The position numbers and the translations under genes are program-made. DNA of 64,000 nt from contig JAAFAB010000004.1 of assembly GCA_018222585.1 (NCBI GenBank), positions 1-64,000 on the forward strand, written 5' to 3'. The stretch is from Paracoccaceae bacterium. GTDB lineage: Bacteria > Pseudomonadota > Alphaproteobacteria > Rhodobacterales > Rhodobacteraceae. Shown piece after piece: positions 35,571-49,810 of the stretch; position 1 is the stretch's first letter; every line of letters starts with the position of its first letter. Below the pieces are notes generated by a model. It searched no databases. It saw only the letters and a program-made list of their open reading frames with translations, and was not told where the DNA came from.

Positions 35571-37340
35571 TCAGTGGTTGTGACGGGGCGGCGTGCGGGC
35601 GATGCGGTGGAACCCTTCGGCGGATCGCAGGACCGCACCGTCGCTCAGCTGGTTGGTCTCGGCGCGGAAGATCTTCTGCCAGGGGGTCTGCGTCACGGGC
35701 ACGGGCGGCACGGTCTGCGCGCGCCGTCTGGCGATTTCCTCCTCTTCGACCAGCATGTCGCAGCGCCCGGCGGCAAGGTCGATGCGGATCCTGTCCCCGG
35801 TGCGCAGCCAGGCCAGGCCGCCACCTTCGGCGCTTTCCGGCGAGGCATGGACGATCGACGGGCTGTCGGCGGTGCCCGACTGACGCCCGTCGCCGATGGT
35901 CGGCAGGCTGGTGATCCCGGCGCGGATCAGACGGTCCGGCGGCTGCATGTTCACCACCTCTGCCGCGCCCGGCCAGCCGAGCGGACCCGATCCGCGGATC
36001 ACCAGGATCGACCGCTCGTCGATTTCCAGCGCCGGGTCGTTGATGCGGGCGTGATAGTCCTCGGAGCCGTCGAAGATCACCGCGCGGCCCTCGAAACAGT
36101 TCTCGTTGCCCGGGTCCGACAGGAAGCGGCGGCGGAAGTCGTCCGAGATCACGCAGGTCTTCATGATGGCGAAATCGAAGAGGTTGCCCGAGAGCACCCG
36201 GAAGCCCGCCCGCTCCATCAGGGGGTCGGCATAGGGGCGGATGACCTCGCGGTCCTTGGCCTCGCGGCCCGCGAGGTTCTCGGCCATGCTTTGGCCGGTG
36301 ACGGTCTGACAGCCTGTGTCCAGCACCCCGGCCTCGGCCAGCTCCCACATGATCGCGGGCACGCCGCCGGCACGGTGGAACCGTTCGGACAGGAAACGCC
36401 CGGCGGGCTGGACATCTGCCAGCAGCGGGATGTCGTAGCCGTGGACCTGCCAGTCGTCATGGTTGAGGGTCACGCCCGCGGTCGCGGCGATGGCGGCGAT
36501 ATGGGGCTGGGCATTGGTCGAACCGCCGATGGCGGCATTGACCCGCACCGCGTTCAGGATCGCCTCGCGGGTCAGGATCTGCGACGGGCGCAGGTCCTCC
36601 TCGACCAGTTCCACCGCGCGCCTGCCGGTGCGATAGGCCATCTGGCCGCGTTCGCGATAGGCGGCGGGTATGGCGGCGCAGCCGGTCAGCGACAGGCCCA
36701 TGGCCTCGGCCAGGGCGTTCATCGTCGAGGCGGTGCCCATGGTGTTGCAATGTCCGATGGAGGGGGCCGAGTCCATTGCCGCCTCGAGGAATTCGGCCCG
36801 GTCGATCTCACCTGCCGCATAGCGGCGGCGGGATTGCCAGATCACCGTGCCCGATCCTGCCAGGCGCCCCTCGTGCACCGAATCCAGCATCGCGCCGCCA
36901 GAGAGGACGATGGCGGGGATGTCGACGGTGGCCGCCGCCATGATCGCGGCGGGAGTGGTCTTGTCGCAGCCCGTGGTCAGCACAACCCCGTCGATGGGAT
37001 AGCCATGCAGCACCTCCACCAGTCCGAGATAGGACAGGTTGCGGTCGAGCGCCGCCGTCGGGCGGCGGCAGTTCTCGAAGATCGGATGGGTCGGGAATTC
37101 GATGGGGATCCCGCCGGCGTCGCGGATCCCGTCCCGGACGCGCTTGGCGAGGTCGAGGTGATGGCGGTTGCAGGGCGAGAGATCGCTGCCCGACTGCGCG
37201 ATGCCGATGATCGGGCGGCCCTCGCTCAGCTCTTCCGGGGTCAGGCCGTAGTTCATGAACCGTTCGAGATACAGCGCGGTCATGTCGGCGTGATCGGGAT
37301 TGTCGAACCAGTCCTGGCTTCTCAGGCGGCGTCTGGTCAT
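35571..37340 (-). CDS. xylD: IlvD/Edd-family sugar-acid dehydratase, XylD (xylonate dehydratase)-like
   Basis: 589 aa; SQDWFDNPDHADMTALYLERFMNYG...PPRHNH closely resembles remembered Caulobacter XylD. Confidence 0.85.
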   Translation of the reverse strand: MTRRRLRSQDWFDNPDHADMTALYLERFMNYGLTPEELSEGRPIIGIAQSGSDLSPCNRHHLDLAKRVRDGIRDAGGIPIEFPTHPIFENCRRPTAALDRNLSYLGLVEVLHGYPIDGVVLTTGCDKTTPAAIMAAATVDIPAIVLSGGAMLDSVHEGRLAGSGTVIWQSRRRYAAGEIDRAEFLEAAMDSAPSIGHCNTMGTASTMNALAEAMGLSLTGCAAIPAAYRERGQMAYRTGRRAVELVEEDLRPSQILTREAILNAVRVNAAIGGSTNAQPHIAAIAATAGVTLNHDDWQVHGYDIPLLADVQPAGRFLSERFHRAGGVPAIMWELAEAGVLDTGCQTVTGQSMAENLAGREAKDREVIRPYADPLMERAGFRVLSGNLFDFAIMKTCVISDDFRRRFLSDPGNENCFEGRAVIFDGSEDYHARINDPALEIDERSILVIRGSGPLGWPGAAEVVNMQPPDRLIRAGITSLPTIGDGRQSGTADSPSIVHASPESAEGGGLAWLRTGDRIRIDLAAGRCDMLVEEEEIARRRAQTVPPVPVTQTPWQKIFRAETNQLSDGAVLRSAEGFHRIARTPPRHNH

Positions 37341-38512
37341 TTCAGCACTCCTCTGGCTGCGAGGTTGGACATCAGCGCCCGGGTGCCGAAGCTCCAGGGA
37401 GCGACCGCATCGCAGGGTCGCACCCGGTTCACCAGGCGCCCCAGGGCAGGCGAGGAGACGGTGACGATGTCGCCGGTCTTGTGGGTGAACCCCATGCCCG
37501 GACCCATCCGGTCCCGGGTGGGGGCGAACATCGTCCCGAGGTAGAGCATCGCGCCATCGGGGTACTGGTGCGTCGCGTTCAGCAGCTGCGCCGCGAGGTC
37601 GGCCGGCCGGCGCGAGATCTGCGACATATCCGAATGGTCCGACAGGGCAAAGCCGTCCTCGCCGGTGATCTCCAGCCCGACGCGCAGGCCGGCGAGGTCC
37701 TCCAGCGTGAAGGTGGTGTCGAAGAGCCGGATGAAGGGGCCGAGAGAGGCCGAGGCATTGTTGTCCTTCGCCTTGCCGAGCAGCAGGGCGGAGCGGCCCT
37801 CGAAATCGCGCAGGTTCACGTCGTTGCCGAGCGTGGCGCCAAGGATCTCTCCGCGCGAGTTGAGGGCCAGCACCACCTCGGGCTCGGGGTTGTTCCAGTG
37901 CGATCCGGGGTGCACCCCGATCTGTGCGCCGCAGCCCACGGCGGACATCGGCTGCGCCTTGGTGAAAATCTCGGCGTCGGGGCCGATCCCGACCTCGAGG
38001 TACTGCGACCAGAGCCCGGCCTTCTGCAGATGCGCCTTCACCTCGGCCGCCTTGTCCGAACCGGGCACCAGGCCGCGCAGGTTGCCGTCGAGGATCTCGG
38101 ACAGCTCGGCGCGGATCGCCTCGGCCAGCGCGGGGTCGCCCTTGGCGCGTTCCTCGATCACCCGTTCGATCATCGACCCGGCGAAGGTCACCCCCGCCGC
38201 CTTCACCGCCTGCAGGTCGCAGGGGGCAAGCAGCTGGCCCAGCTCTCCGGTGCCGTCGCCCCGGTCGAGATAGCGGTCGAGCGGGCCGAGCGAGGGACCG
38301 CCGTCGCGCAGCGCCCCGGCGAGGTCGGGCAGGTCCAGCAGGCCCGACATGGTCGGGGCGATAGGGGTCAGGTCCAGCACCTCGCCGTCGCGCAGCAGCA
38401 CGGGGCAGGGACCCTCGGCGGCATGGGACCAGACCCGGCCGAGAAGCAGCGGTGCGGGGGCCTCGGGCAGGATGTCCTTGGCGGTCAGGGCCAGCGGCTT
38501 GGGTGTTGTCAT
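37337..38512 (-). CDS. xylX: FAH-family protein, XylX (2-keto-3-deoxy-pentonate dehydratase)-like
   Basis: 391 aa; GLWSQYLEVGIGPDAEIFTK...SHWNNPEPEVVL...GNDVNLRDFEGRSALLL. Confidence 0.85.
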   Translation of the reverse strand: MTTPKPLALTAKDILPEAPAPLLLGRVWSHAAEGPCPVLLRDGEVLDLTPIAPTMSGLLDLPDLAGALRDGGPSLGPLDRYLDRGDGTGELGQLLAPCDLQAVKAAGVTFAGSMIERVIEERAKGDPALAEAIRAELSEILDGNLRGLVPGSDKAAEVKAHLQKAGLWSQYLEVGIGPDAEIFTKAQPMSAVGCGAQIGVHPGSHWNNPEPEVVLALNSRGEILGATLGNDVNLRDFEGRSALLLGKAKDNNASASLGPFIRLFDTTFTLEDLAGLRVGLEITGEDGFALSDHSDMSQISRRPADLAAQLLNATHQYPDGAMLYLGTMFAPTRDRMGPGMGFTHKTGDIVTVSSPALGRLVNRVRPCDAVAPWSFGTRALMSNLAARGVLK

Positions 38513-38660
38513 TGCGAAAGTCCTGTTGCGGGTCCTTGGCCGGCCACGGAGGGGCCGCGGACCGATGGGGGGATGGCGGCGGGCGGTGGCCCTCCGGCGG
38601 ACGCGTGACCGCCGTCTCGTGGCCTGCGTCTCAGGCGGGGGGCCTTCTGTCGCCGCGCGC

Positions 38661-39473
38661 TCATGGGGTCTGTCGCGCCCGTTCGTCGCGTCCGGGCGGG
38701 GTGGGGAAGGTTGCCAGGCCCTTCCTGAGGTGCGTGCGCATCAGGTACTGGTAGGCAAGATGGTCCGCGGCCTCCAACGCCTGCAGGACCGCATCATGTT
38801 CCCGGTAGGTCTCGCCCTCGATGATCCGGCGGGTCTTGCCGTGCTGCATGATACGCAGGATCACGGGTTTCATGATACCGTAGATGTCGAGGATCGACTG
38901 GTTGCCGGTCAGCGAGATCAGCTTGATGTGGTACTGGAAATCGACCTCGGAGGCTTCGACGATGCTGCGTGCCTGGACCATGCTGCGGTTGAGGTCGCGC
39001 AGCTCGGCCAGGTCCTCGGCAGTCACCGCATCGAAGATCGCCAGCGCCGAGCCGGTCTCGATCAGTTCGCGGAAGCCCTGGATGTCGGCGAAGGTCCGGC
39101 GCGAGATCTCGCCCACGTTGAACGAGAAGATGTCCAGCGCGCGGTTGATCCGCTGGTCGATCAGCGTGGCGCCGACCTTCGGCCGCACGTCGACGATGCC
39201 GTAGGCCTTCAGCATCCGCATCGCCTCGCGCACGGTGTTGCGGCTGGTCGCGAAGCGGTCGCAGAGCTCGCGCTCGGTCGGAAGCTTGTCACCGACGGTC
39301 AGCCCGTCGGCGTCGATCAGCTCCCGGATCTGGGCCACCACCTGATCGACGGCCGAGCCGCCGCCAGACTCCTCGGTCGCACTGTCCTCCGCCGCAGTGT
39401 CTTCGGTTGCCCTGTCCTCGGTCGGGTCGTCCACGTCTGCTGTCTCTGCCCTGTCACTCATGCTGCCGCTCAT
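38661..39473 (-). CDS. FadR-subfamily GntR transcriptional regulator
   Basis: LPTERELCDRFATSRNTVREAMRMLKAYGIV; FCD-like C-terminal domain. Confidence 0.92.
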   Translation of the reverse strand: MSGSMSDRAETADVDDPTEDRATEDTAAEDSATEESGGGSAVDQVVAQIRELIDADGLTVGDKLPTERELCDRFATSRNTVREAMRMLKAYGIVDVRPKVGATLIDQRINRALDIFSFNVGEISRRTFADIQGFRELIETGSALAIFDAVTAEDLAELRDLNRSMVQARSIVEASEVDFQYHIKLISLTGNQSILDIYGIMKPVILRIMQHGKTRRIIEGETYREHDAVLQALEAADHLAYQYLMRTHLRKGLATFPTPPGRDERARQTP

Positions 39474-40780
39474 ATCAGCCAGGTGGCGATCGGCGGGAAG
39501 AACAGGATCGTCGCCAGGACCACCAGTTGCAAGGCGATGAAGGGCAGCAGGGCGACATAGATGTGCTTCAGCGTGATCTCCTTCGGCGCCACGCTCTTCA
39601 GGTAGAAGGCGGCGGGGCCGAAGGGCGGTGTCAGGTACGAGACCTGCATGTTCACCGCGAAGAGGATACCGAACCAGATCGGATCATAGCCGAGTTGCAC
39701 GACGATGGGCACGAAGATCGGCAGGGTCAGCAGGGCGATGCCGATCCAGTCGAGGAACATGCCCAGCACCAGCAGGATCAGCATCATCACCATGATGATC
39801 ACCACGGGCGCCGCGTCGATCCCCAGGATCGCCTGGGCCACGAAGCGGTTGCCGCCCATCAGGTTGTAGACACCCACGAGGACGGCGGCGGCAATGCCGA
39901 TCCAGATGATCATGCCGCAGGTCTGCAGCGTGTGCACAAGGCTGTCCTGCAGCATCTTCAGGCTCAGCTCGCGGCGCAGCAGCGAGATGATCAGCACCGC
40001 CGAAACCCCCATGGCCGCTGCCTCGGTGATCGAGGCGATGCCGCCGTAGATCGAACCCAGCACGACGAAGACGATGAAGAGGGGCGCCGCCAGAGAGCGG
40101 AGGGCGGAGAGCAGCGACTCCTGCGCCGCCTCGTCGCGCGACATCGGTGGGCCGAGCTGCGGGTTGCGCCAGCAGATGAACAGGACGTAGGTCACGTAGA
40201 ACCCCAGCAGCAGCAGCGCCGGGGTGATGGCGGCGACGAAGAGATCGGCGATGGAGGTGCTGGCGACCAGGCCGTAGATGATCAGCACGATGGAGGGCGG
40301 CATCATCGTGCCGAGGGACCCGCCGGCACAGACCACGCCGATGGAGAGGCTGCGGTCATAGCCGAGGCGCAGCATCTGGGGCAGGGCGAGGATGCCCAGC
40401 AGGACGATCTCGCCGCCGATGACCCCGGACATGGCAGCCATCAGGATCGCCACGATCAGGGTCTGCACCGCGACGCCGCCGGGCAGTCGCCCGGCCAGGA
40501 TGCGCATTCCGTTGAACAGCGACTTCGCGATGCCTGAGCGGTCGAGCAGCGCCGCCATCAGGATGAACATCGGGATGGCGACAAGGGAATACTCGGTGAT
40601 GAAGCCGAAGATCCGCGAGGTCACCAGCGGCAGGGCCATGGGGCCGAACCAGCCGTAGGTGAAGATGAGCGCGACGAAGCCGGTGACCCAGGCCAGCGGC
40701 TGCCCGGTCAGCAGCAGCAGGAAGATCGCGCCGACGAGGAGGTAGGAGCCGTATTCGATTCCGATAGTGCTGAGGCCCAT
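39470..40780 (-). CDS. dctM: TRAP transporter large permease (DctM)
   Basis: 436 aa; multi-TM; GGSLGTMMPPSIVLIIYG. Confidence 0.93.
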   Translation of the reverse strand: MGLSTIGIEYGSYLLVGAIFLLLLTGQPLAWVTGFVALIFTYGWFGPMALPLVTSRIFGFITEYSLVAIPMFILMAALLDRSGIAKSLFNGMRILAGRLPGGVAVQTLIVAILMAAMSGVIGGEIVLLGILALPQMLRLGYDRSLSIGVVCAGGSLGTMMPPSIVLIIYGLVASTSIADLFVAAITPALLLLGFYVTYVLFICWRNPQLGPPMSRDEAAQESLLSALRSLAAPLFIVFVVLGSIYGGIASITEAAAMGVSAVLIISLLRRELSLKMLQDSLVHTLQTCGMIIWIGIAAAVLVGVYNLMGGNRFVAQAILGIDAAPVVIIMVMMLILLVLGMFLDWIGIALLTLPIFVPIVVQLGYDPIWFGILFAVNMQVSYLTPPFGPAAFYLKSVAPKEITLKHIYVALLPFIALQLVVLATILFFPPIATWLI

Positions 40781-40782
40781 GG

Positions 40783-41352
40783 TCAGTTGTCCCCTTCGGT
40801 CGCGGAGGTGTCGCGCCGGATCGCGGCGACCAGGTGGAAGACCGTCTGGACGAACATCAGACCCACGCAGAGCAGCACCAGCAGCTTCAGCAGCGCCGGG
40901 GTCGGCGGGTTCCAGGAGGTCCCGGTGCCTTCAAGGTGCAGGGCGCCCGAGGGGTTGAACCAGGACTTCTCGACCATGATCCAGCTGGCAAAGGCCAGGC
41001 CGGCGAAGAACATCAGCGCCACCACCGAGTTGACGATGTCGAGCAGTCGGCGGCGAGCAGGGCTGACGGAATCGTAGATCATCCGCACCCGGATATGCTT
41101 GTCCCGCGCCAGGGCGACGGGGCCGCCGATCAGGAAGATCGCGGCAATCAGGAAGCTTGTCGTCTCGTGCGCCCAGAAGGTCGGGCTGCTGAACACGTAG
41201 CGCGCGACGACTTCGACCACGGTGATGAGAAAGGCCACGAAGATCGCCCAGGCCAGGACCTTGGTCGATGCGGAAACCGCCTGGTCCAACCCCGTGCGGA
41301 TCTCGGTTTCTTCATCCTCGATGGCATGTATGATATCGCTCTGTTCGGCCAT
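40783..41352 (-). CDS. dctQ: TRAP transporter small permease (DctQ)
   Basis: 189 aa; 4 TM; next to dctM/dctP. Confidence 0.9.
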   Translation of the reverse strand: MAEQSDIIHAIEDEETEIRTGLDQAVSASTKVLAWAIFVAFLITVVEVVARYVFSSPTFWAHETTSFLIAAIFLIGGPVALARDKHIRVRMIYDSVSPARRRLLDIVNSVVALMFFAGLAFASWIMVEKSWFNPSGALHLEGTGTSWNPPTPALLKLLVLLCVGLMFVQTVFHLVAAIRRDTSATEGDN

Positions 41353-41432
41353 TTTCGGCTCTCCCCCTGCCTACAGGGACCGCGTCCGGCACAGGGCCGG
41401 CCGGGCGCGGTCGTTTCGTTTTCAGTGAAGGA

Positions 41433-42458
41433 TCAAAGCAGGTTGCGGCCCTTGAGATAGGCCGTCACGGCGTCATAGTAACGCTGTGTCATCTCGGTCT
41501 TGGGCGCCCAGTTCTGCCATTCCTGCTGCGCGATGCGGCGGAACTTGGCACGTTCGTCACCCGACCAGTTGATGATCTCGATCTCTGGGTTTTCCTTGGC
41601 TTTTTCGACCGCGGCGGCATCCAGCTGACGGACCGAGTAGATGTGGTCGAAGCTGAACTGCTTGACGGAAACCTTCATGATCTCCTGCAGGTCCTCGGGC
41701 AGACCGTCCCAGATCGCCTTGTTCATCGAGATGTCGATCATCGGCAGCGAGTGGAAGCCCGGGTAGAGCGGATAATGCGCGATGTCGTTCATGCCGAGCG
41801 ACTGGTTGGTCGCGAAGACGGTGTTGTCCGCGGCATCCACCACGCCCTTGTCGAGCGCCGAGAAGATCTCGGACCCCGGCAGGGACACCGGCGCGGCGCC
41901 GGCTTTCGAGAAGATCTCGTAGACCATGCCTTCGGGCGCGCGCAGCTTGACGCCTTTCAGGTCCTCGACCGTGCGGATCGGAATCCGGGACACGAAGGCC
42001 TCCGGCTCGGTCGCGGCCGCACCGATGAACTGGACGCCATAGGGCTCGACCAGCTCTGCATAAAGCTCGTTGCCGCCGCCGCTTTCCATGAAGCCCAGCA
42101 GTTCGAAGGGATCGCTCCAGGCGCCGACGAGGTTGCCCATCATGGCGAAGGCCGGGTCCTTGCCCGAGAAGTAGCTGGGGTCGGTCAGGTGGCCTTGCAG
42201 GATGCCCGCGCCGACCGCTTCAAGTGTGTCCGAATGGGGCACGACCGCGCCGATCGGCAGGATCTCGATCTCGATGCGGCCGCCCGAAAGCTTGCCGACC
42301 TCGTCAGCCCACTTCTGCTTGTTGACGAACCCCGGCTCACCGGCGGTTTCCGAGGTCTGGAATGTCCAGTTGTAGTCCGCGGACATCGCCGGACCGGCCA
42401 GGCCGAGCGCCGAAATCGTCACGGCCGCCAGCCCGAAAAGCCTCTTGATGAAAGTCAT
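41433..42458 (-). CDS. dctP: TRAP transporter substrate-binding protein (DctP)
   Basis: Signal peptide MTFIKRLFGLAAVTISALGLAGPAMSA; IPIRTVEDLKGVKLRAP. Confidence 0.93.
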   Translation of the reverse strand: MTFIKRLFGLAAVTISALGLAGPAMSADYNWTFQTSETAGEPGFVNKQKWADEVGKLSGGRIEIEILPIGAVVPHSDTLEAVGAGILQGHLTDPSYFSGKDPAFAMMGNLVGAWSDPFELLGFMESGGGNELYAELVEPYGVQFIGAAATEPEAFVSRIPIRTVEDLKGVKLRAPEGMVYEIFSKAGAAPVSLPGSEIFSALDKGVVDAADNTVFATNQSLGMNDIAHYPLYPGFHSLPMIDISMNKAIWDGLPEDLQEIMKVSVKQFSFDHIYSVRQLDAAAVEKAKENPEIEIINWSGDERAKFRRIAQQEWQNWAPKTEMTQRYYDAVTAYLKGRNLL

Positions 42459-42877: not shown

Positions 42878-43315
42878 TCAGCGCGCCGGGCTCCAGCCCG
42901 TCGGTGCCCAGTCTTCCGGCGCCAGTTCCCAGCCCGAGACATCGAAGCCCGGCGAGACGACGCAGGTGACGAGTGTCCAGCCCGACACCGGGCGGGCCGT
43001 CTGCCAGAGGTCCTTCGCCACGAAGCCCTGGGGGTGAAGCGGGTCGACCCTCTGGGCGGTCACCGGGCCGTCCCGGCTCTCGCAGGTCTCGATGATCAGC
43101 GGGTGTCCCGCGTGCCAGAGCCACATCTCGGCAAAGGTATTGCGGTGCCAGTGGCTCTTCTGGCCCTCCTCCAGCAGGTAGTAGATCGCGGAGGCGGAGC
43201 CGCGTTCGGTGCCGTCATCCTCGCGCCAGGTGCGGTTGTACCAGCCACCTTCCGCGTGGGGTTGCAGGCCGAGTTCGCGGATGTAGTCCGCAGGGGTCAG
43301 GTCTTCATAGCTCAT
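42878..43315 (-). CDS. DUF985 cupin-domain protein
   Basis: MSYEDLTPADYIRELGLQPHAEGGWYNRTWRED...SHWHRNTFAEMWLWHAG. Confidence 0.88.
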   Translation of the reverse strand: MSYEDLTPADYIRELGLQPHAEGGWYNRTWREDDGTERGSASAIYYLLEEGQKSHWHRNTFAEMWLWHAGHPLIIETCESRDGPVTAQRVDPLHPQGFVAKDLWQTARPVSGWTLVTCVVSPGFDVSGWELAPEDWAPTGWSPAR

Positions 43316-43325
43316 CTGTCGCTCC

Positions 43326-44156
43326 TCAATAGGGGGTGTCGCCGCCGTCGACATTGATCGCCTGGCCCCGGATCGGCATGGCGGCGTCGCTCAGCAGGAA
43401 GGAGATGGCGCCGGCTACCTCGGCGGGCTGAACGTGGCGATGCAGCTGGGTGCTGATCATGCTCTGGAAGATGTCCGCCCGGTCGCCGCCGGTCATGCCC
43501 GAGAACTGCTCGGCCACGTCCTGCAGCATCGGGGTGGCGACGCTGCCGGGGCAGAGGCAGTTGACGTTGATGTCATGGGGGGCCAGCGCCTCGGACAGCA
43601 TCCGGGTCAGGCTGATGACAGCCGCCTTGCTGACGCTGTAGGCCAGCATGGTTTCGGAATGCCCCTTCTTGCCGGCCTCCGAAGCGATGTTGACGATGGC
43701 CCCGGGGTGCCCGGCGGCGATCATGTGCTTGGCCACCAGCGCCGCTGCCTCGTAGCCGCCGATCACGTTGATCTCCATCGTGCGGCGCCATTCGTCGCGG
43801 GTCGTGTCCAGGGGCGCGAAGTGCTCGGCGATGCCGATGCAGTTCACCAGCCCGTCCAGCCCGCCCAGCGAGGCGATCGCCCGGGCAACCGCCTCGGCCG
43901 TCTCGGTCTCGTCCGAGATGTCCGCAGTCGTGCCCGCGATGGACAGGTCCGCCGTCAGCGCGGCGATCTTCGCGGGCGAGAGATCGACGGCAAACACCTG
44001 TGCGCCCTGGGCCTGCAGCAGCGCGCAGGTTTGCGCGCCGACCCCGCCTGTCGCCCCGAGGACGAGATAGCGCCGCCCGGAATGTATCGGGTGCGGATCG
44101 CCGCCGCGCACCGGCAGGGGGTGCCGGGTCTCTGAGGAAAAGGTGAATGCTGCCAT
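43326..44156 (-). CDS. SDR-family oxidoreductase
   Basis: LVLGATGGVGAQTCALL; AYSVSKAAVISLTRML; start at MAAFTFSS. Confidence 0.92.
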   Translation of the reverse strand: MAAFTFSSETRHPLPVRGGDPHPIHSGRRYLVLGATGGVGAQTCALLQAQGAQVFAVDLSPAKIAALTADLSIAGTTADISDETETAEAVARAIASLGGLDGLVNCIGIAEHFAPLDTTRDEWRRTMEINVIGGYEAAALVAKHMIAAGHPGAIVNIASEAGKKGHSETMLAYSVSKAAVISLTRMLSEALAPHDINVNCLCPGSVATPMLQDVAEQFSGMTGGDRADIFQSMISTQLHRHVQPAEVAGAISFLLSDAAMPIRGQAINVDGGDTPY

Positions 44157-44225: not shown

Positions 44226-44244
44226 AAGCTGACACATGTGTCAA
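44226..44244 (-). promoter_or_regulatory. Operator TTGACACATGTGTCAGCTT upstream of SDR-cupin
   Basis: Perfect TGACAC-N2-GTGTCA core; near-identical to 45056-45074. Confidence 0.8.
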
Positions 44245-44288
44245 CATAGAGCAGTTGATTTTCTGACGATGCTGTCAGGACATGCCGC

Positions 44289-44954
44289 CTAGAGAAGCAC
44301 TCCCGAAAGCACGATGCCGGAAATCGTCCGGGCCGCGGCGTCGAAGTCGGCGGGTCGCAGGGTGCCGGTTTCCAGCGTGTCGCAGGCCAGTGGCTCGGAG
44401 AGGGACAGGAATTGCGTGGCGCCCCAGAGCAGCATCAGCAGGTGCCGGGCATCGACCTTGCGGATGTGGCCCTCGGCCATCCATTGCTCCAGCACCAGGA
44501 CCCGCTCCCTGGTGAGGGCATGCATGTAATCGCGATCACGGCGGGTCAGGAACTTGGCGCCGCCCAGGATCTCGCTGGCGAACAGGCGCGACTGGATCGG
44601 GTGAAGGCGTGCGTAGTCTAGTTTTGCGTGCACATAGGCCGTCAGTGCCTGCTCGGGGCTGTTTTCGGGCGAAATATGGCGCAGGGCAAGCTCCCAGCCG
44701 TGGATCAGCTCGCTGATCAGGGCGCGGTAGATGTCTTCCTTGGTGTCGAAGTAATAGTAGACGTTCGCGCGCGGCAGACCCGTGGCTTTGGCGATCTGCA
44801 ACATGCTGACCCCCTCGTAGCCCTTTTCCGCGAAGAGTTCGGCCGAGGCCCGCAGGATCGCGCGGGTGTTGCGCTCGCGGATGCGCTCGTCGCCGGCCTC
44901 TGCGCCGCGCCCCCGTCGTGTCTTGGCCGGTGCCTTCTCCGAACCTTCGCCCAT
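44289..44954 (-). CDS. TetR-family regulator with RutR/YcdC-like C-terminal domain
   Basis: VSMLQIAKATGLPRANVYYYFDTKEDIY; C-terminal HPIQSRLFASEILGGAKFL resembles remembered RutR. Confidence 0.88.
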   Translation of the reverse strand: MGEGSEKAPAKTRRGRGAEAGDERIRERNTRAILRASAELFAEKGYEGVSMLQIAKATGLPRANVYYYFDTKEDIYRALISELIHGWELALRHISPENSPEQALTAYVHAKLDYARLHPIQSRLFASEILGGAKFLTRRDRDYMHALTRERVLVLEQWMAEGHIRKVDARHLLMLLWGATQFLSLSEPLACDTLETGTLRPADFDAAARTISGIVLSGVLL

Positions 44955-45050
44955 GATCCGACCCCCTGTCCTGGTCCCTCTGCCTGCGGAATGCGCAAAA
45001 AGACGCCTCCACAGACAGCTATCATCCCGACAGCGGCAGGTCACGGCCAA

Positions 45051-45076
45051 ATAAGTTGACACCTGTGTCAGCTTAT
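45051..45076 (+). promoter_or_regulatory. Operator ATAAGTTGACAC-CT-GTGTCAGCTTAT upstream of BMP transporter
   Basis: 26-bp palindrome with one mismatched pair; contains TTGACACCTGTGTCAGCTT. Confidence 0.85.
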
Positions 45077-45135: not shown

Positions 45136-46197
45136 ATGACGCACGATAGAAAGACCCGCCGGATCCGGCTGAACCTCCGCCGCCGCGGCCTGCTGAAGGG
45201 CGCTGCCGCCGGGCTGGCATTGACGTTGGCGCTCGGCTTCGGCGCACCTCAGGCCCGGGCCGCAGAGGGGCTGCTGGCATTGGTTCATACGCAGGCGGCG
45301 GGGGACAACGGGCCGGTGGATTCGATGATCGCCCGCCTCAACGAACTGGCGGAAGAGACGGGCATGACCGCCCGGGCGATCTACGCCCAGGACCCCGCGA
45401 CCTACGAGACGATCTTCCGCACCCTCGGCGATGCCGGCGCCACGGTGATCGTCACCACCTTCGCCGAGGTGGGCGAGCCGGTGAAGGCGCTGGCGCCGCT
45501 CTATCCCGAGACCCGCTGGATCGAGCTCTATGCCGACCCGGTCGAGCCCGCGCTGCCAAATGTCGCCACGGTCTCCTACGACTATCACCTCGGGTGCTAC
45601 CTCGCCGGCGTCTTCGGCGCGCTGATCAGCGAAAGCGGCACGATCGGCTACGTCGGCGGGGCCTCTCTGCCGACGCTCAATGCCGATCTGAACGCGCTGC
45701 GCGCCGGGGCGCTGTCGGTGGACCCGGACATCACCGTCCTGTCCGCCTTTGCCGGGTCCTTCCAGGATCCCGCCAAGGGGCAGGAGATCGCGACGCAGAT
45801 GTACACGGAAGGGGCCGATTTCATCCAGACCGACTCGGCCGCGACCGACGCGGGCATCATTGCCGCCGCCAACGAGGCGGAGGGCCGCATGGTCAGTGCC
45901 ATCTCCCCGGCGCAGTACCGGCTGGGGCCGTCGACCGTGGCGACGCTGGTCTCTCTCGATTTCGGCCAGTCGCTTTATAACGAGGTGTCGCGCGCGCTGG
46001 ACCCCGGCTGGAGCGGTGGCCACGTTAGCACGGGCCTGGGCTCCGGCGTGATCGATTTCCTCGCCTCCCCGGTGTTCGCCGAGGAGGGCCCGGAGGCGCT
46101 TGCTGCCAAGGTCCGGGCGGTCTGGCCCGAGGTCGAGGCGATCCGGCAGAAGATCATCGACGGCGAGATCGAGGTGCCTTTCGACACCACGCTCTGA
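45136..46197 (+). CDS. BMP-family ABC transporter substrate-binding protein
   Basis: Tat-like RRRGLLKG signal; YDYHLGCYLAGVFGALISESGTIGYVGG. Confidence 0.9.
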   Translation: MTHDRKTRRIRLNLRRRGLLKGAAAGLALTLALGFGAPQARAAEGLLALVHTQAAGDNGPVDSMIARLNELAEETGMTARAIYAQDPATYETIFRTLGDAGATVIVTTFAEVGEPVKALAPLYPETRWIELYADPVEPALPNVATVSYDYHLGCYLAGVFGALISESGTIGYVGGASLPTLNADLNALRAGALSVDPDITVLSAFAGSFQDPAKGQEIATQMYTEGADFIQTDSAATDAGIIAAANEAEGRMVSAISPAQYRLGPSTVATLVSLDFGQSLYNEVSRALDPGWSGGHVSTGLGSGVIDFLASPVFAEEGPEALAAKVRAVWPEVEAIRQKIIDGEIEVPFDTTL

Positions 46198-46272
46198 CCG
46201 TCCGGCGCGCCGTGGCGGCCCGATGGCCCCGGCGCGCCCAGATGCCCCATTTTGCCAGCAGGAAGCCCGGCC

Positions 46273-47889
46273 ATGCCCCCAGACTCTCCCGCCGCCGCTG
46301 TTGCGGCGCTCGACTGCCGTGACGTGACCGTCCGCTATGGTGCCGTCACCGCTCTCTCCGGAATCACGGCCGCCTTCGCGCCCGGCCTGATCCATGCCGT
46401 CGTCGGCCAGAACGGCGCGGGCAAGACCACCTTTGCCCGGGTGGCCGCCGGCCTGGTGCAGCCGGCCGAGGGGGAGGTGTCCATTCTCGGTACGCCAATC
46501 CGCACCGGGCATGTCAGCGAGAGCCGGGCGGCCGGGGTGGAGCTTGTCCACCAGAGTTTCGCGCTGCCGCCCTCGTTCACCGTTTCCGAGGCGATGGAGT
46601 TCGGCGCGACGGGGCGGGGCGGCCTGTTCACCGCACGCCGGTTGCGACGCAGGTGGCAGGCCCATCTGGCCGAGCTGGACGTGACGGCCGGACCAACGCA
46701 GCGGATCCGCGATCTGCCGGTCGAGACCCAGCAGGCGGTCGAGATCGCCAGGGCGCTGATCACCGACGCCCGGGTGCTGATCCTGGACGAGCCGACGGCG
46801 GTGCTGACGCCGGCGGGGATCGAAACCCTGTTCGACAGGGTGCGCCGGCTGAAGGCCAGCGGCGTCACCGTCCTGCTGATCCTGCACAAGATCCGCGAGG
46901 TGCTGGCCATCGCCGACACACTGACCGTGCTGCGGGCCGGTCAGCTTGTCGATGGCCCGCGTCCTGCCGCGACGGTCGACGAGGCCGAGCTGACGCGCCT
47001 GATCGTCGGCCAGTCCGATCCTGCCGCGGGCCGGAGCGGGGCAGGGCCGGCAGGCCAGCCAGTTTCTCCGCCCGTGTCCCCTTCTGTATCGCCCTCGGGG
47101 CCCGGGGCGTCGCCCATGGTGCCCGCCGCCGGAAGCCACCCGCCCGCCCTTGGGATCTACGCGCTGCGCACCCGCGCCGACAGCGAGGGGCCGGCCCTGG
47201 AGGACGTCGACCTTGAGGTCGCCCCGGGGGAAATACTCGGTATTGCCGGGGTCGAGGGGAATGGCCAGAAATCCCTGGTCCGGGCCATCGCCGGGCTGGC
47301 CGAGGTCGAAAGCGGACGCATCATGCTGGGCGGGCGCGACATCGGTCCGCGCAGCCTGGGCGAGCGGCGGGCGGCGGGGCTGCGCATCATTCCCTTCGAA
47401 CGCAACACCGAGGGGCTGAGCCTGCGCAGCAGTCTCTGGGAGAACTGGAGCGCCGGCGCGCTGCTGCAGCGCCCCCTGCTGAGCCCGGTGCGGCCGGATC
47501 ATCTGCGTCGGGATTGCGCCGCGGCGCTGCGCGAATGGCAGGTCCGATATCACAGCCCGGCGCAGCCGGCGGGGTCGCTGTCGGGGGGCAATGCCCAGAA
47601 GGTGATCCTGGCCCGCGAGATCGACGAGGCGGCGCGGCTGATCATCGCCGCCCAGCCGACGCGTGGGCTGGATATCGGCGCCACGGCCTTCGTCTGGCGG
47701 GCGCTGCGTGCGGCGCGCGACCGGGGCGCGGCCGTGCTGGTGATCTCGTCCGATCTGGATGAGCTCTTCGACATTTCCGACCGGGTGGTGGTGATGCTGT
47801 CGGGGCGCGTCTCCGGCCGGTTCGCCCCGCCCTACAGTCTGACCCGGGTCGGTGCGGCGATGACCGGCGCCGAAGGAGCGTTCGCATGA
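46273..47889 (+). CDS. ABC transporter ATP-binding protein (two fused NBDs, nucleoside/sugar type)
   Basis: VVGQNGAGKTTFARVAAG; VLILDEPTAVLTP; second NBD LSGGNAQKVILAREI. Confidence 0.95.
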   Translation: MPPDSPAAAVAALDCRDVTVRYGAVTALSGITAAFAPGLIHAVVGQNGAGKTTFARVAAGLVQPAEGEVSILGTPIRTGHVSESRAAGVELVHQSFALPPSFTVSEAMEFGATGRGGLFTARRLRRRWQAHLAELDVTAGPTQRIRDLPVETQQAVEIARALITDARVLILDEPTAVLTPAGIETLFDRVRRLKASGVTVLLILHKIREVLAIADTLTVLRAGQLVDGPRPAATVDEAELTRLIVGQSDPAAGRSGAGPAGQPVSPPVSPSVSPSGPGASPMVPAAGSHPPALGIYALRTRADSEGPALEDVDLEVAPGEILGIAGVEGNGQKSLVRAIAGLAEVESGRIMLGGRDIGPRSLGERRAAGLRIIPFERNTEGLSLRSSLWENWSAGALLQRPLLSPVRPDHLRRDCAAALREWQVRYHSPAQPAGSLSGGNAQKVILAREIDEAARLIIAAQPTRGLDIGATAFVWRALRAARDRGAAVLVISSDLDELFDISDRVVVMLSGRVSGRFAPPYSLTRVGAAMTGAEGAFA

Positions 47890-48923
47890 GCAGCCATCTC
47901 GTCACCATCACCCGCAGCCTGGTCTTTGTCTGCCTCGCGCTGCTGCTCTGCGCCGCCCTGATGCAGGGGCTGGGCTTCAATGCGCTGCTGATGCTGACCT
48001 CGGTGGCGGAGGGGGCTTTCCTGCGCCCCGGCGCTATCGAGAACAGCCTTCGCTGGGGGCTGCCGCTGTTTCTCAGCGCGGCGGGCGTCAGCATCGCCTT
48101 CCGGGCCGGCTTCTTCAACATCGGCGCACAGGGACAGTTCTACCTCGGGGCGATCTTCGCCGCCACCGCCGCGCACTGGCTGCAGGGCGGGGCGCCGCTG
48201 CTGGTGATCCCCGCGATCCTCTGCGCGGGCTTTCTCGGCGGCGCCCTCTGGGCGCTCTGGCCGGGGCTGATGAAACTCGGCTCGGGTACGGACGAGGTCA
48301 TCACCACCCTGATGGGCAATTTCATCGCCGGCCTGCTGCTGGTCTGGGTCACCTCGGGGCCGTTGAAGGATCCGGCGGGATCGGGGCAGCAGGCGTCGAG
48401 CCCGGTGCTGGCGGCGCCCTACCGCATTTCCGACAGCAGCGGTGTGTCCGCGACCACGCTGGGGATCGCGCTCGGCGTGGGGATCCTGCTGTGGCTGCTG
48501 GTCAACCGCACGGCCTTCGGCGTGCTCTCGGGGCTGGCGGGGCGCAACGGCACAATGGTGCGCTGGCAGGGGGCGTCGTCCTGGCGGATCGGGCTGACCA
48601 GTTTCCTGCTCTCCGGCGGTCTGGCCGGCCTCGCCGGAGCGGTCGAGTTCGCCGGGCCGACCGGACGTATCGCCTCGGGCTTCCTGCCGGGCCACGGCTT
48701 TACGGCGACCTTGGTCGCGCTGGTGGCGAATTTCTCGATCCTCGGGACGGCGGTCACGGCGCTGTTCTTCGGCGGCCTTGCGGCTGCCGCGCTCTACCTG
48801 CCGATCATGGCGGGGCTGCCCGCCGCCGCGATCGAGGTCATCAACGCGTCGATCGCCCTCTTCATCACCGCCCGGTCGCGCCTGGTCGACCGCCTGGCCG
48901 GCCGCAAGGAGACCTCCTCATGA
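47886..48923 (+). CDS. ABC transporter permease
   Basis: FRAGFFNIGAQGQFYLGAI; ATGA overlaps on both sides. Confidence 0.94.
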   Translation: MSSHLVTITRSLVFVCLALLLCAALMQGLGFNALLMLTSVAEGAFLRPGAIENSLRWGLPLFLSAAGVSIAFRAGFFNIGAQGQFYLGAIFAATAAHWLQGGAPLLVIPAILCAGFLGGALWALWPGLMKLGSGTDEVITTLMGNFIAGLLLVWVTSGPLKDPAGSGQQASSPVLAAPYRISDSSGVSATTLGIALGVGILLWLLVNRTAFGVLSGLAGRNGTMVRWQGASSWRIGLTSFLLSGGLAGLAGAVEFAGPTGRIASGFLPGHGFTATLVALVANFSILGTAVTALFFGGLAAAALYLPIMAGLPAAAIEVINASIALFITARSRLVDRLAGRKETSS

Positions 48924-49810
48924 TCGACCTTCTCATCGCGATCCTGCGTTCGGGGACACCCCTTGTCTATATCACCCTGGCGGGCGTGATCGCCCAGCGG
49001 TCGGGAGTCTGGCACCTGGGCCTCGAGGGGATCATGATCATCGGCGCCTGCGCCACGATCCTCGGCATCGTCGCCACCGGCTCCTTCGCGCTGGCGCTGC
49101 TGATTGCGGTCCTGCTCTGCGTGGCGGCCTCGGTTCTGCTCTGGGTGGTGATCGAAAAGCTGCGGGCCAATCCGATCATCGCGGGCCTGGGCATGACCGG
49201 TCTCGGCCTCGGCGGTACGGCACTGGCGGTCGAGGCGATCTTCGGCAGCCAGGCCACTGTCAGCGCCCCCTTCGGCGTGCCGCGCATTGGCGACAGCTTC
49301 GGTCGCTTCGGTGTGCTGTCGATCTTCGTGGTTGCCCTGCCGGTGGTCGTCGCCCTGTTCTGGGTGCTGCTGCGGCGTACCCGCTTCGGCCTGCGCCTTG
49401 CGGCCAGTGGAGAACATCCCTTCGCCCTGCGCAGCATCGGCGGCAACCCCTCGGCGATGCGCCTCGCGGCGCTGGTCATCGGTGGCGTCCTCTGCGCGAT
49501 CGGTGGCGCCGAGCTTGCGGGTGGATCCCTGCAGTTCTTCGCTCAGGGGATGACGGCGGGACGCGGGTTCATGGCCTTTGCCGCCGTGGTCTTCGGGGCG
49601 GCGCACCCGGTGGCGGCGCCGGCCGCCGCGCTGCTCTTTGCCATCCTCGGCACCCTGGGCATCCGTGCGCAACTTCTCTTCGGCGAGAAGGTGCCCCATG
49701 ACCTGCTCCAGGCGGTGCCCTACCTCACGACGGTGGTGGGGGTCTGGCTGTCCAGCCGTCTGCGCGGCGGCGGCGATGGCGGGGGCTACGGCGAGCTGCG
49801 CGACCGCTGA
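48920..49810 (+). CDS. ABC transporter permease
   Basis: MIDLLIAILRSGTPLVYITLAGVIAQRSGVWHLGLEGIMIIGA; start inside longer ORF. Confidence 0.94.
   Translation: MIDLLIAILRSGTPLVYITLAGVIAQRSGVWHLGLEGIMIIGACATILGIVATGSFALALLIAVLLCVAASVLLWVVIEKLRANPIIAGLGMTGLGLGGTALAVEAIFGSQATVSAPFGVPRIGDSFGRFGVLSIFVVALPVVVALFWVLLRRTRFGLRLAASGEHPFALRSIGGNPSAMRLAALVIGGVLCAIGGAELAGGSLQFFAQGMTAGRGFMAFAAVVFGAAHPVAAPAAALLFAILGTLGIRAQLLFGEKVPHDLLQAVPYLTTVVGVWLSSRLRGGGDGGGYGELRDR

Follow-up and report, generated by a model that had tools for sequence, protein, structure and literature searches.

A predicted local TetR switch of the RutR sister clade, with three TGAC-N6-GTCA sites beside a BMP-type ABC transporter operon and an SDR-cupin gene pair

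The closest described relative of the regulator considered here is E. coli RutR (YcdC; TIGR03613, PF08362), whose operator is TTGACCANNTGGTCAA and whose ligand is uracil. In RutR structures, W77 and W167 sandwich uracil, which bonds with Q171 and, via water, with Y97; Q179 from the other subunit makes a further contact (PMC10891134). On the transport side, the nearest known systems are the nucleoside-binding ABC transporters of the BMP/PnrA/BmpA type, and the contact residues of BmpA used for comparison were taken from PMC13325309. For one DUF985 cupin, a structure with bound GDP, 3LZZ, is listed in PMC11594714. In this study, we analyzed a 64,000-nucleotide stretch of contig JAAFAB010000004.1 from a Paracoccaceae bacterium (the window), in which a tetR gene lies between an SDR-cupin gene pair and a divergent BMP ABC operon. 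The locus is apparently an undescribed example of a well-known kind, an ordinary genetic switch run by a local TetR repressor. Taken as a whole, it is probably best explained as a self-contained switch, in which a repressor from the sister group of RutR would respond to a pyrimidine-like inducer.

The window TetR shares with RutR the fold and the PF08362 C-terminal domain (TetR_C_3, 103.6 bits; TetR_N, 57.8 bits; gathering scores 25 and 24, respectively). The top eight PDB matches of its AlphaFold model (pLDDT 89) were all RutR, with a TM of 0.8, which bears out the RutR-like C-terminus noticed in the first-pass annotation. The wider RutR-like label holds at the level of sister kinship but not of identity. 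The protein scored 120.8 bits against the RutR equivalog TIGR03613, whose curated cut-off is 368, and in a maximum-likelihood tree, for which the program warned of long branches, it formed one clade with eight relatives (100/99), whereas the RutR-type proteins, including E. coli RutR, formed a separate sister group (100/99). By domain scores and tree, the window TetR is thus placed in a sister clade of RutR and not in RutR itself. The recognition helix also differs, being NVYYYF in the clade (NLYYYF in L040) and NLLYYF, NLHYYF or close variants in RutR-type proteins.

A second RutR-like paralog, often adjoining the standard RutR gene, occurs in L008, L013, L018, L021, L029, L031 and L032 (helix PKANLHYYF; PKANLLYYF in L013). 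This Rhodobacteraceae group (e.g., L008 and L021) is of the same family and has tandem sites 33-34 bases apart, but it forms another clade, its sites are TGACC-N4-GGTCA, and it retains H172 and Q179.

Table 1. Genes and predicted operators of the locus, with positions in the window (L036, the Pseudooceanicola antarcticus locus)
Feature	Position	Strand	Remarks
DUF985 (Cupin_5) protein, predicted target sharing an operon with SDR	42878-43315	-	PF06172; 87% ortholog in L036
SDR oxidoreductase, predicted target	43326-44156	-	PF13561; 82% ortholog at the equivalent position of L036
SDR-proximal predicted operator TTGACACATGTGTCAGCTT	44226-44244, core 44230-44243	-	Possible -35 TTGACA facing the SDR gene; kept at L036:5912
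SDR-distal predicted operator TGACGATGCTGTCA	44264-44277	.	Counterpart L036:5878, with the same 34-base distance to its partner
TetR-family predicted repressor, sister clade of RutR	44289-44954	-	PF08362, PF00440; tree; AlphaFold model
Predicted operator TTGACACCTGTGTCAGCTT, tetR/BMP divergent promoter region	45056-45074, core 45057-45070	+	Kept in L036:5085
BMP-type substrate-binding protein, predicted target	45136-46197	+	PF02608; 57-81% relatives adjoin clade TetRs
ABC transporter ATP-binding protein	46252-47889	+	PF00005
ABC transporter permease 1	47886-48923	+	PF02653
ABC transporter permease 2	48923-49810	+	PF02653

Predicted operators occupy both intergenic stretches bordering tetR, with two sites towards the SDR-cupin genes and one towards the divergent BMP operon (Table 1). 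The two 19-base sites reported earlier, TTGACACATGTGTCAGCTT and TTGACACCTGTGTCAGCTT, were recovered at their places and on opposite strands with a single mismatch, and a repeat search returned this pair as the longest inverted repeat of the region (23 bases, 91% complementary). The site before the BMP operon does lie in a 26-base palindrome, ATAAGTTGACACCTGTGTCAGCTTAT (45051-45076), although an imperfect one, with 11 of 13 base pairs matching. A third site, TGACGATGCTGTCA, was found 34 bases upstream of the SDR-proximal one. The proposal of a 19-bp operator common to two promoters is therefore amended: both sites are real, but there are three sites, and the common core is TGAC-N6-GTCA rather than a fixed 19-mer. 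Since TTGACA resembles a common -35 box, the palindromes could in principle be alike by chance. We regard this as having a negligible probability, because three cores were observed in the two intergenic stretches against a mean of 0.008 expected from shuffled stretches, none of 20,000 shuffles reached three, and the sites are conserved in orthologs; chance origin is thereby refuted computationally.

Each main site is directed at its downstream gene, as first described, and this direction is conserved. The TTGACA half, constant in its orientation, may best be interpreted as a -35 element, and the pointing of each main site at its gene would then be accounted for. A simple sigma-70 promoter scan gave no match and no good consensus -10 box, and so the -35 reading is unproven.

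The same five-part locus is present in Pseudooceanicola antarcticus (L036), where the proteins are 80% (TetR), 82% (SDR), 87% (cupin), 81% (BMP) and 79% (ABC) identical. All three sites are kept there, although the intergenic DNA has for the most part diverged. In the pairwise alignment with the window, GTTGACA and TGTCAGCTT are unchanged, whereas the bases at the center and most of the DNA around the site are changed; at the distal site, CTGACA...GTCA is retained amid diverged flanks. No SDR ortholog was found in 295 other genomes of the order, and the SDR-cupin version of the locus is thus rare. A DUF985 gene likewise follows the clade TetR in L056. Downstream of the cupin gene and on the same strand, the window holds genes for a GntR regulator, a TRAP transporter (DctP/Q/M) and an FAA-hydrolase-like protein (37337-42458). 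These genes are absent from the P. antarcticus locus and have no operator, and are therefore probably outside the unit.

Beyond this close relative, TetRs of 45-50% identity adjoin BMP proteins of 57-66% identity on S. meliloti pSymA, on two Ensifer plasmids, in G059, which comes from the same family as the window, and in G749 and its relatives, which belong to another family of the class. Each of these loci has TGAC-N6-GTCA sites before some operon or gene of the cluster. Across 17 clade promoter regions (4,159 bp), 26 such sites were counted against 0.11 expected, and the maximum in 400 shuffles was 2. The site at 45056-45074 is conserved at L063:8945 with the same asymmetric flanks; the S. 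meliloti main site, AAAGTTGACACTTTGGTCAGCTTT, retains these flanks. Tandem spacing of 33-34 bases recurs in L063, L065, L066, L080, L081 and L084. The arrangement of TetR, site and transporter is conserved in several bacterial families.

The layout of the sites parallels that of RutR, as had been pointed out, in its TTGAC ends and its 16-base inverted repeat, and a TTGAC...GTCAA inverted repeat lies near the window tetR gene, as expected of the RutR-like TetR family. The parallel fails at the fifth base, since the window sites are of the TGACA/G type and not the TTGACC-N4-GGTCAA of RutR. Among 52 half-sites of the clade, the fifth base was A in 27, G in 14, C in 7 and T in 4, whereas in RutR loci it was C in 77 of 82, a count that includes every TGAC-N6-GTCA in those loci. 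The change in the recognition helix co-occurs with this base change, as a correlation across one deep split that does not imply causation. An apparently undescribed RutR sister clade gains a concrete and testable regulon, with operators, probable targets, and a recognition-helix change paired with one operator position.

The genome also encodes a RutR of its own on contig C19, and the outer TTGAC/GTCAA and 16-base layout fit the RutR consensus, so that the sites might belong to this true RutR and the locus be an ordinary outlying target of it. We consider this very improbable: the genome's own RutR gene has a normal TTGACC-type site, TGACCTTTTGGTCA, upstream, the fifth base is not the C that prevails in RutR loci, and in several families the sites occur together with the clade of the local TetR. 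The tree and the operator type lead us to reject a true RutR site.

The genome scan suggested in the first-pass annotation showed the motif to be rare. Exactly three copies of TGACACNNGTGTCA were present in the entire genome of 5.15 Mb, two of them at this locus. The looser TGACANNNNTGTCA has eight matches genome-wide, and a reversed control pattern had none. Of the six matches away from the locus, four lie within predicted ORFs, one of which may be spurious, and two are paired at a distance of 17 bases directly before an RND efflux operon. That pair consists of two TGACA-N4-TGTCA palindromes (L038:7192-7222; G000:C35:435191-435221), and the RND operon ends with a TetR-family gene of another type. 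With the distant matches so placed, a genome-wide regulon was rejected. The narrower claim of a local regulon comprising tetR, SDR, DUF985 cupin and BMP transporter is strongly supported by the conserved sites at both promoters.

Considering these results, the window TetR is very likely a local repressor, and its three sites very probably allow it to shut down the adjacent transporter operon and the SDR and cupin genes. In the model that we propose, a TetR dimer would bind TGAC-N6-GTCA at the one site in the tetR/BMP region and at the two tandem sites before the SDR-cupin genes. Without inducer, it would occupy both SDR sites as well as the BMP/tetR promoter region, so that transcription stays low; the TTGACA half of each main site is probably the promoter -35 box, so that bound repressor would block RNA polymerase. 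A small pyrimidine-like inducer may bind between the two residues corresponding to the uracil-stacking W77 and W167 of RutR and release the repressor. Release would turn on uptake by the BMP ABC transporter together with oxidation by the SDR, with the cupin, and we infer that tetR itself would also be expressed (autoregulation).

Alternatively, the TetR could activate transcription, or have a dual role, with its tandem sites helping polymerase. Clade loci and the RutR-paralog group alike have kept the 33-34 base spacing, and the distal site stands upstream of the proximal one, which would suit such a role. This is nevertheless improbable, as the proximal site would lie over the -35 region, where repressors typically bind, and most studied TetR proteins are repressors.

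Four of the five uracil contacts of RutR (W77, Y97, W167 and Q171), including both stacking tryptophans, are identical in the window TetR and in all clade members. The position of Q179 is Leu in the window TetR and Leu, Val, Ile or Met across the clade, and that of H172 is Phe in the window TetR and Phe or Tyr across the clade. With four contacts kept and these two positions changed, a flat pyrimidine-like ligand is plausible, which is probably not handled exactly like uracil. The four residues are also present throughout the RutR/TetR_C_3 family sampled, and thus they do not fix the ligand. The predicted control likewise differs from that of RutR, being of a BMP ABC transporter and not of rut genes. 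The BMP protein has the PF02608 domain (119.5 bits vs. 24.1), which it shares with the BMP/PnrA/BmpA transporters, and retains Phe176 of BmpA. Unlike BmpA, it lacks the ribose contacts Asp225 and Lys242, which are Ser/Ala and Leu in its whole subfamily, and it has a distinctive HTQAAGD[NS]GP loop. A sensor whose pocket resembles that for uracil is in this way linked to DUF985/SDR enzymes and to an as yet unassigned subfamily of BMP transporters, and the ligand candidates are narrowed.

In sister operons of S. meliloti, Ensifer, G059 and G749-type genomes, the first gene encodes an Ung-like protein with GQDPYP and HPA motifs of catalytic type. In addition, S. meliloti and Agrobacterium larrymoorei have a nucleoside hydrolase closest to the pyrimidine-specific RihA/UriH, with scores below the cut-offs. 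The presence of one or both proteins in sister operons is suggestive of a pyrimidine-like ligand. The window's cluster has no nucleoside hydrolase, and the closest one in the genome (55%, contig C16) has no site nearby. The Ung-like enzyme module was not found elsewhere in the window's genome, where only a weak partial match inside the window was obtained.

The earlier assignment to a nucleoside- or nucleobase-derived compound is accordingly only suggestive: the pocket favors a pyrimidine-like ligand, and the BMP protein is without two BmpA ribose contacts. A pyrimidine-like inducer of the window TetR is our tentative proposal, falling a little short of an even chance, and a nucleoside as the transported compound is a more doubtful one. 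The inducer might also have nothing to do with pyrimidines (a sugar acid or a vitamin-B6-like ring would be examples), with the pocket residues conserved only with the fold. Besides the missing ribose contacts, the transporter subunits scored best, if far below the cut-off, against a putative B6 ABC family, and a 50% identical relative of the SDR in Ensifer has as its neighbors a different BMP system and a regulator of MocR type, which matched YczR best but scored below its cut-off. The retention of all four contacts and the Ung-like proteins and pyrimidine-type hydrolases of the sister operons speak against an unrelated inducer, which we hold to be possible but somewhat against expectation.

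A bolder and rather unlikely extension is that the clade governs a so far undescribed pathway that breaks down a pyrimidine-type or modified N-glycoside. In it, an Ung-fold protein would act on a small molecule, not on DNA, alongside a GMC oxidoreductase, a NIPSNAP protein and a new BMP subfamily; in the Pseudooceanicola version, the enzyme module would have been swapped for SDR and DUF985 cupin, with regulator, operators and transporter kept. A literature search, in which few subscription journals were covered, returned nothing relevant on the sister operon in rhizobia or on a link between BMP and TetR.

Further gene arrangements were also observed. An operon encoding an Ung-like protein, a choline-dehydrogenase-like GMC oxidoreductase and a NIPSNAP protein is conserved at L063:9003-11816, L065:8904-11809, L067:5968-8789 and L040:4459-7252, where it is linked with the BMP transporter under the clade TetR. 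The Ensifer cluster with the SDR relative is a second BMP ABC cluster of Ensifer sp. PDNC004 (L065:18370-24945), which also contains a cupin-domain gene. On the pTi of A. larrymoorei (L064:4558-12948), genes for a ferredoxin, a cytochrome P450 and an FAD oxidoreductase adjoin the same BMP transporter subfamily, in a cluster that includes the RihA-like nucleoside hydrolase and lacks the TetR.
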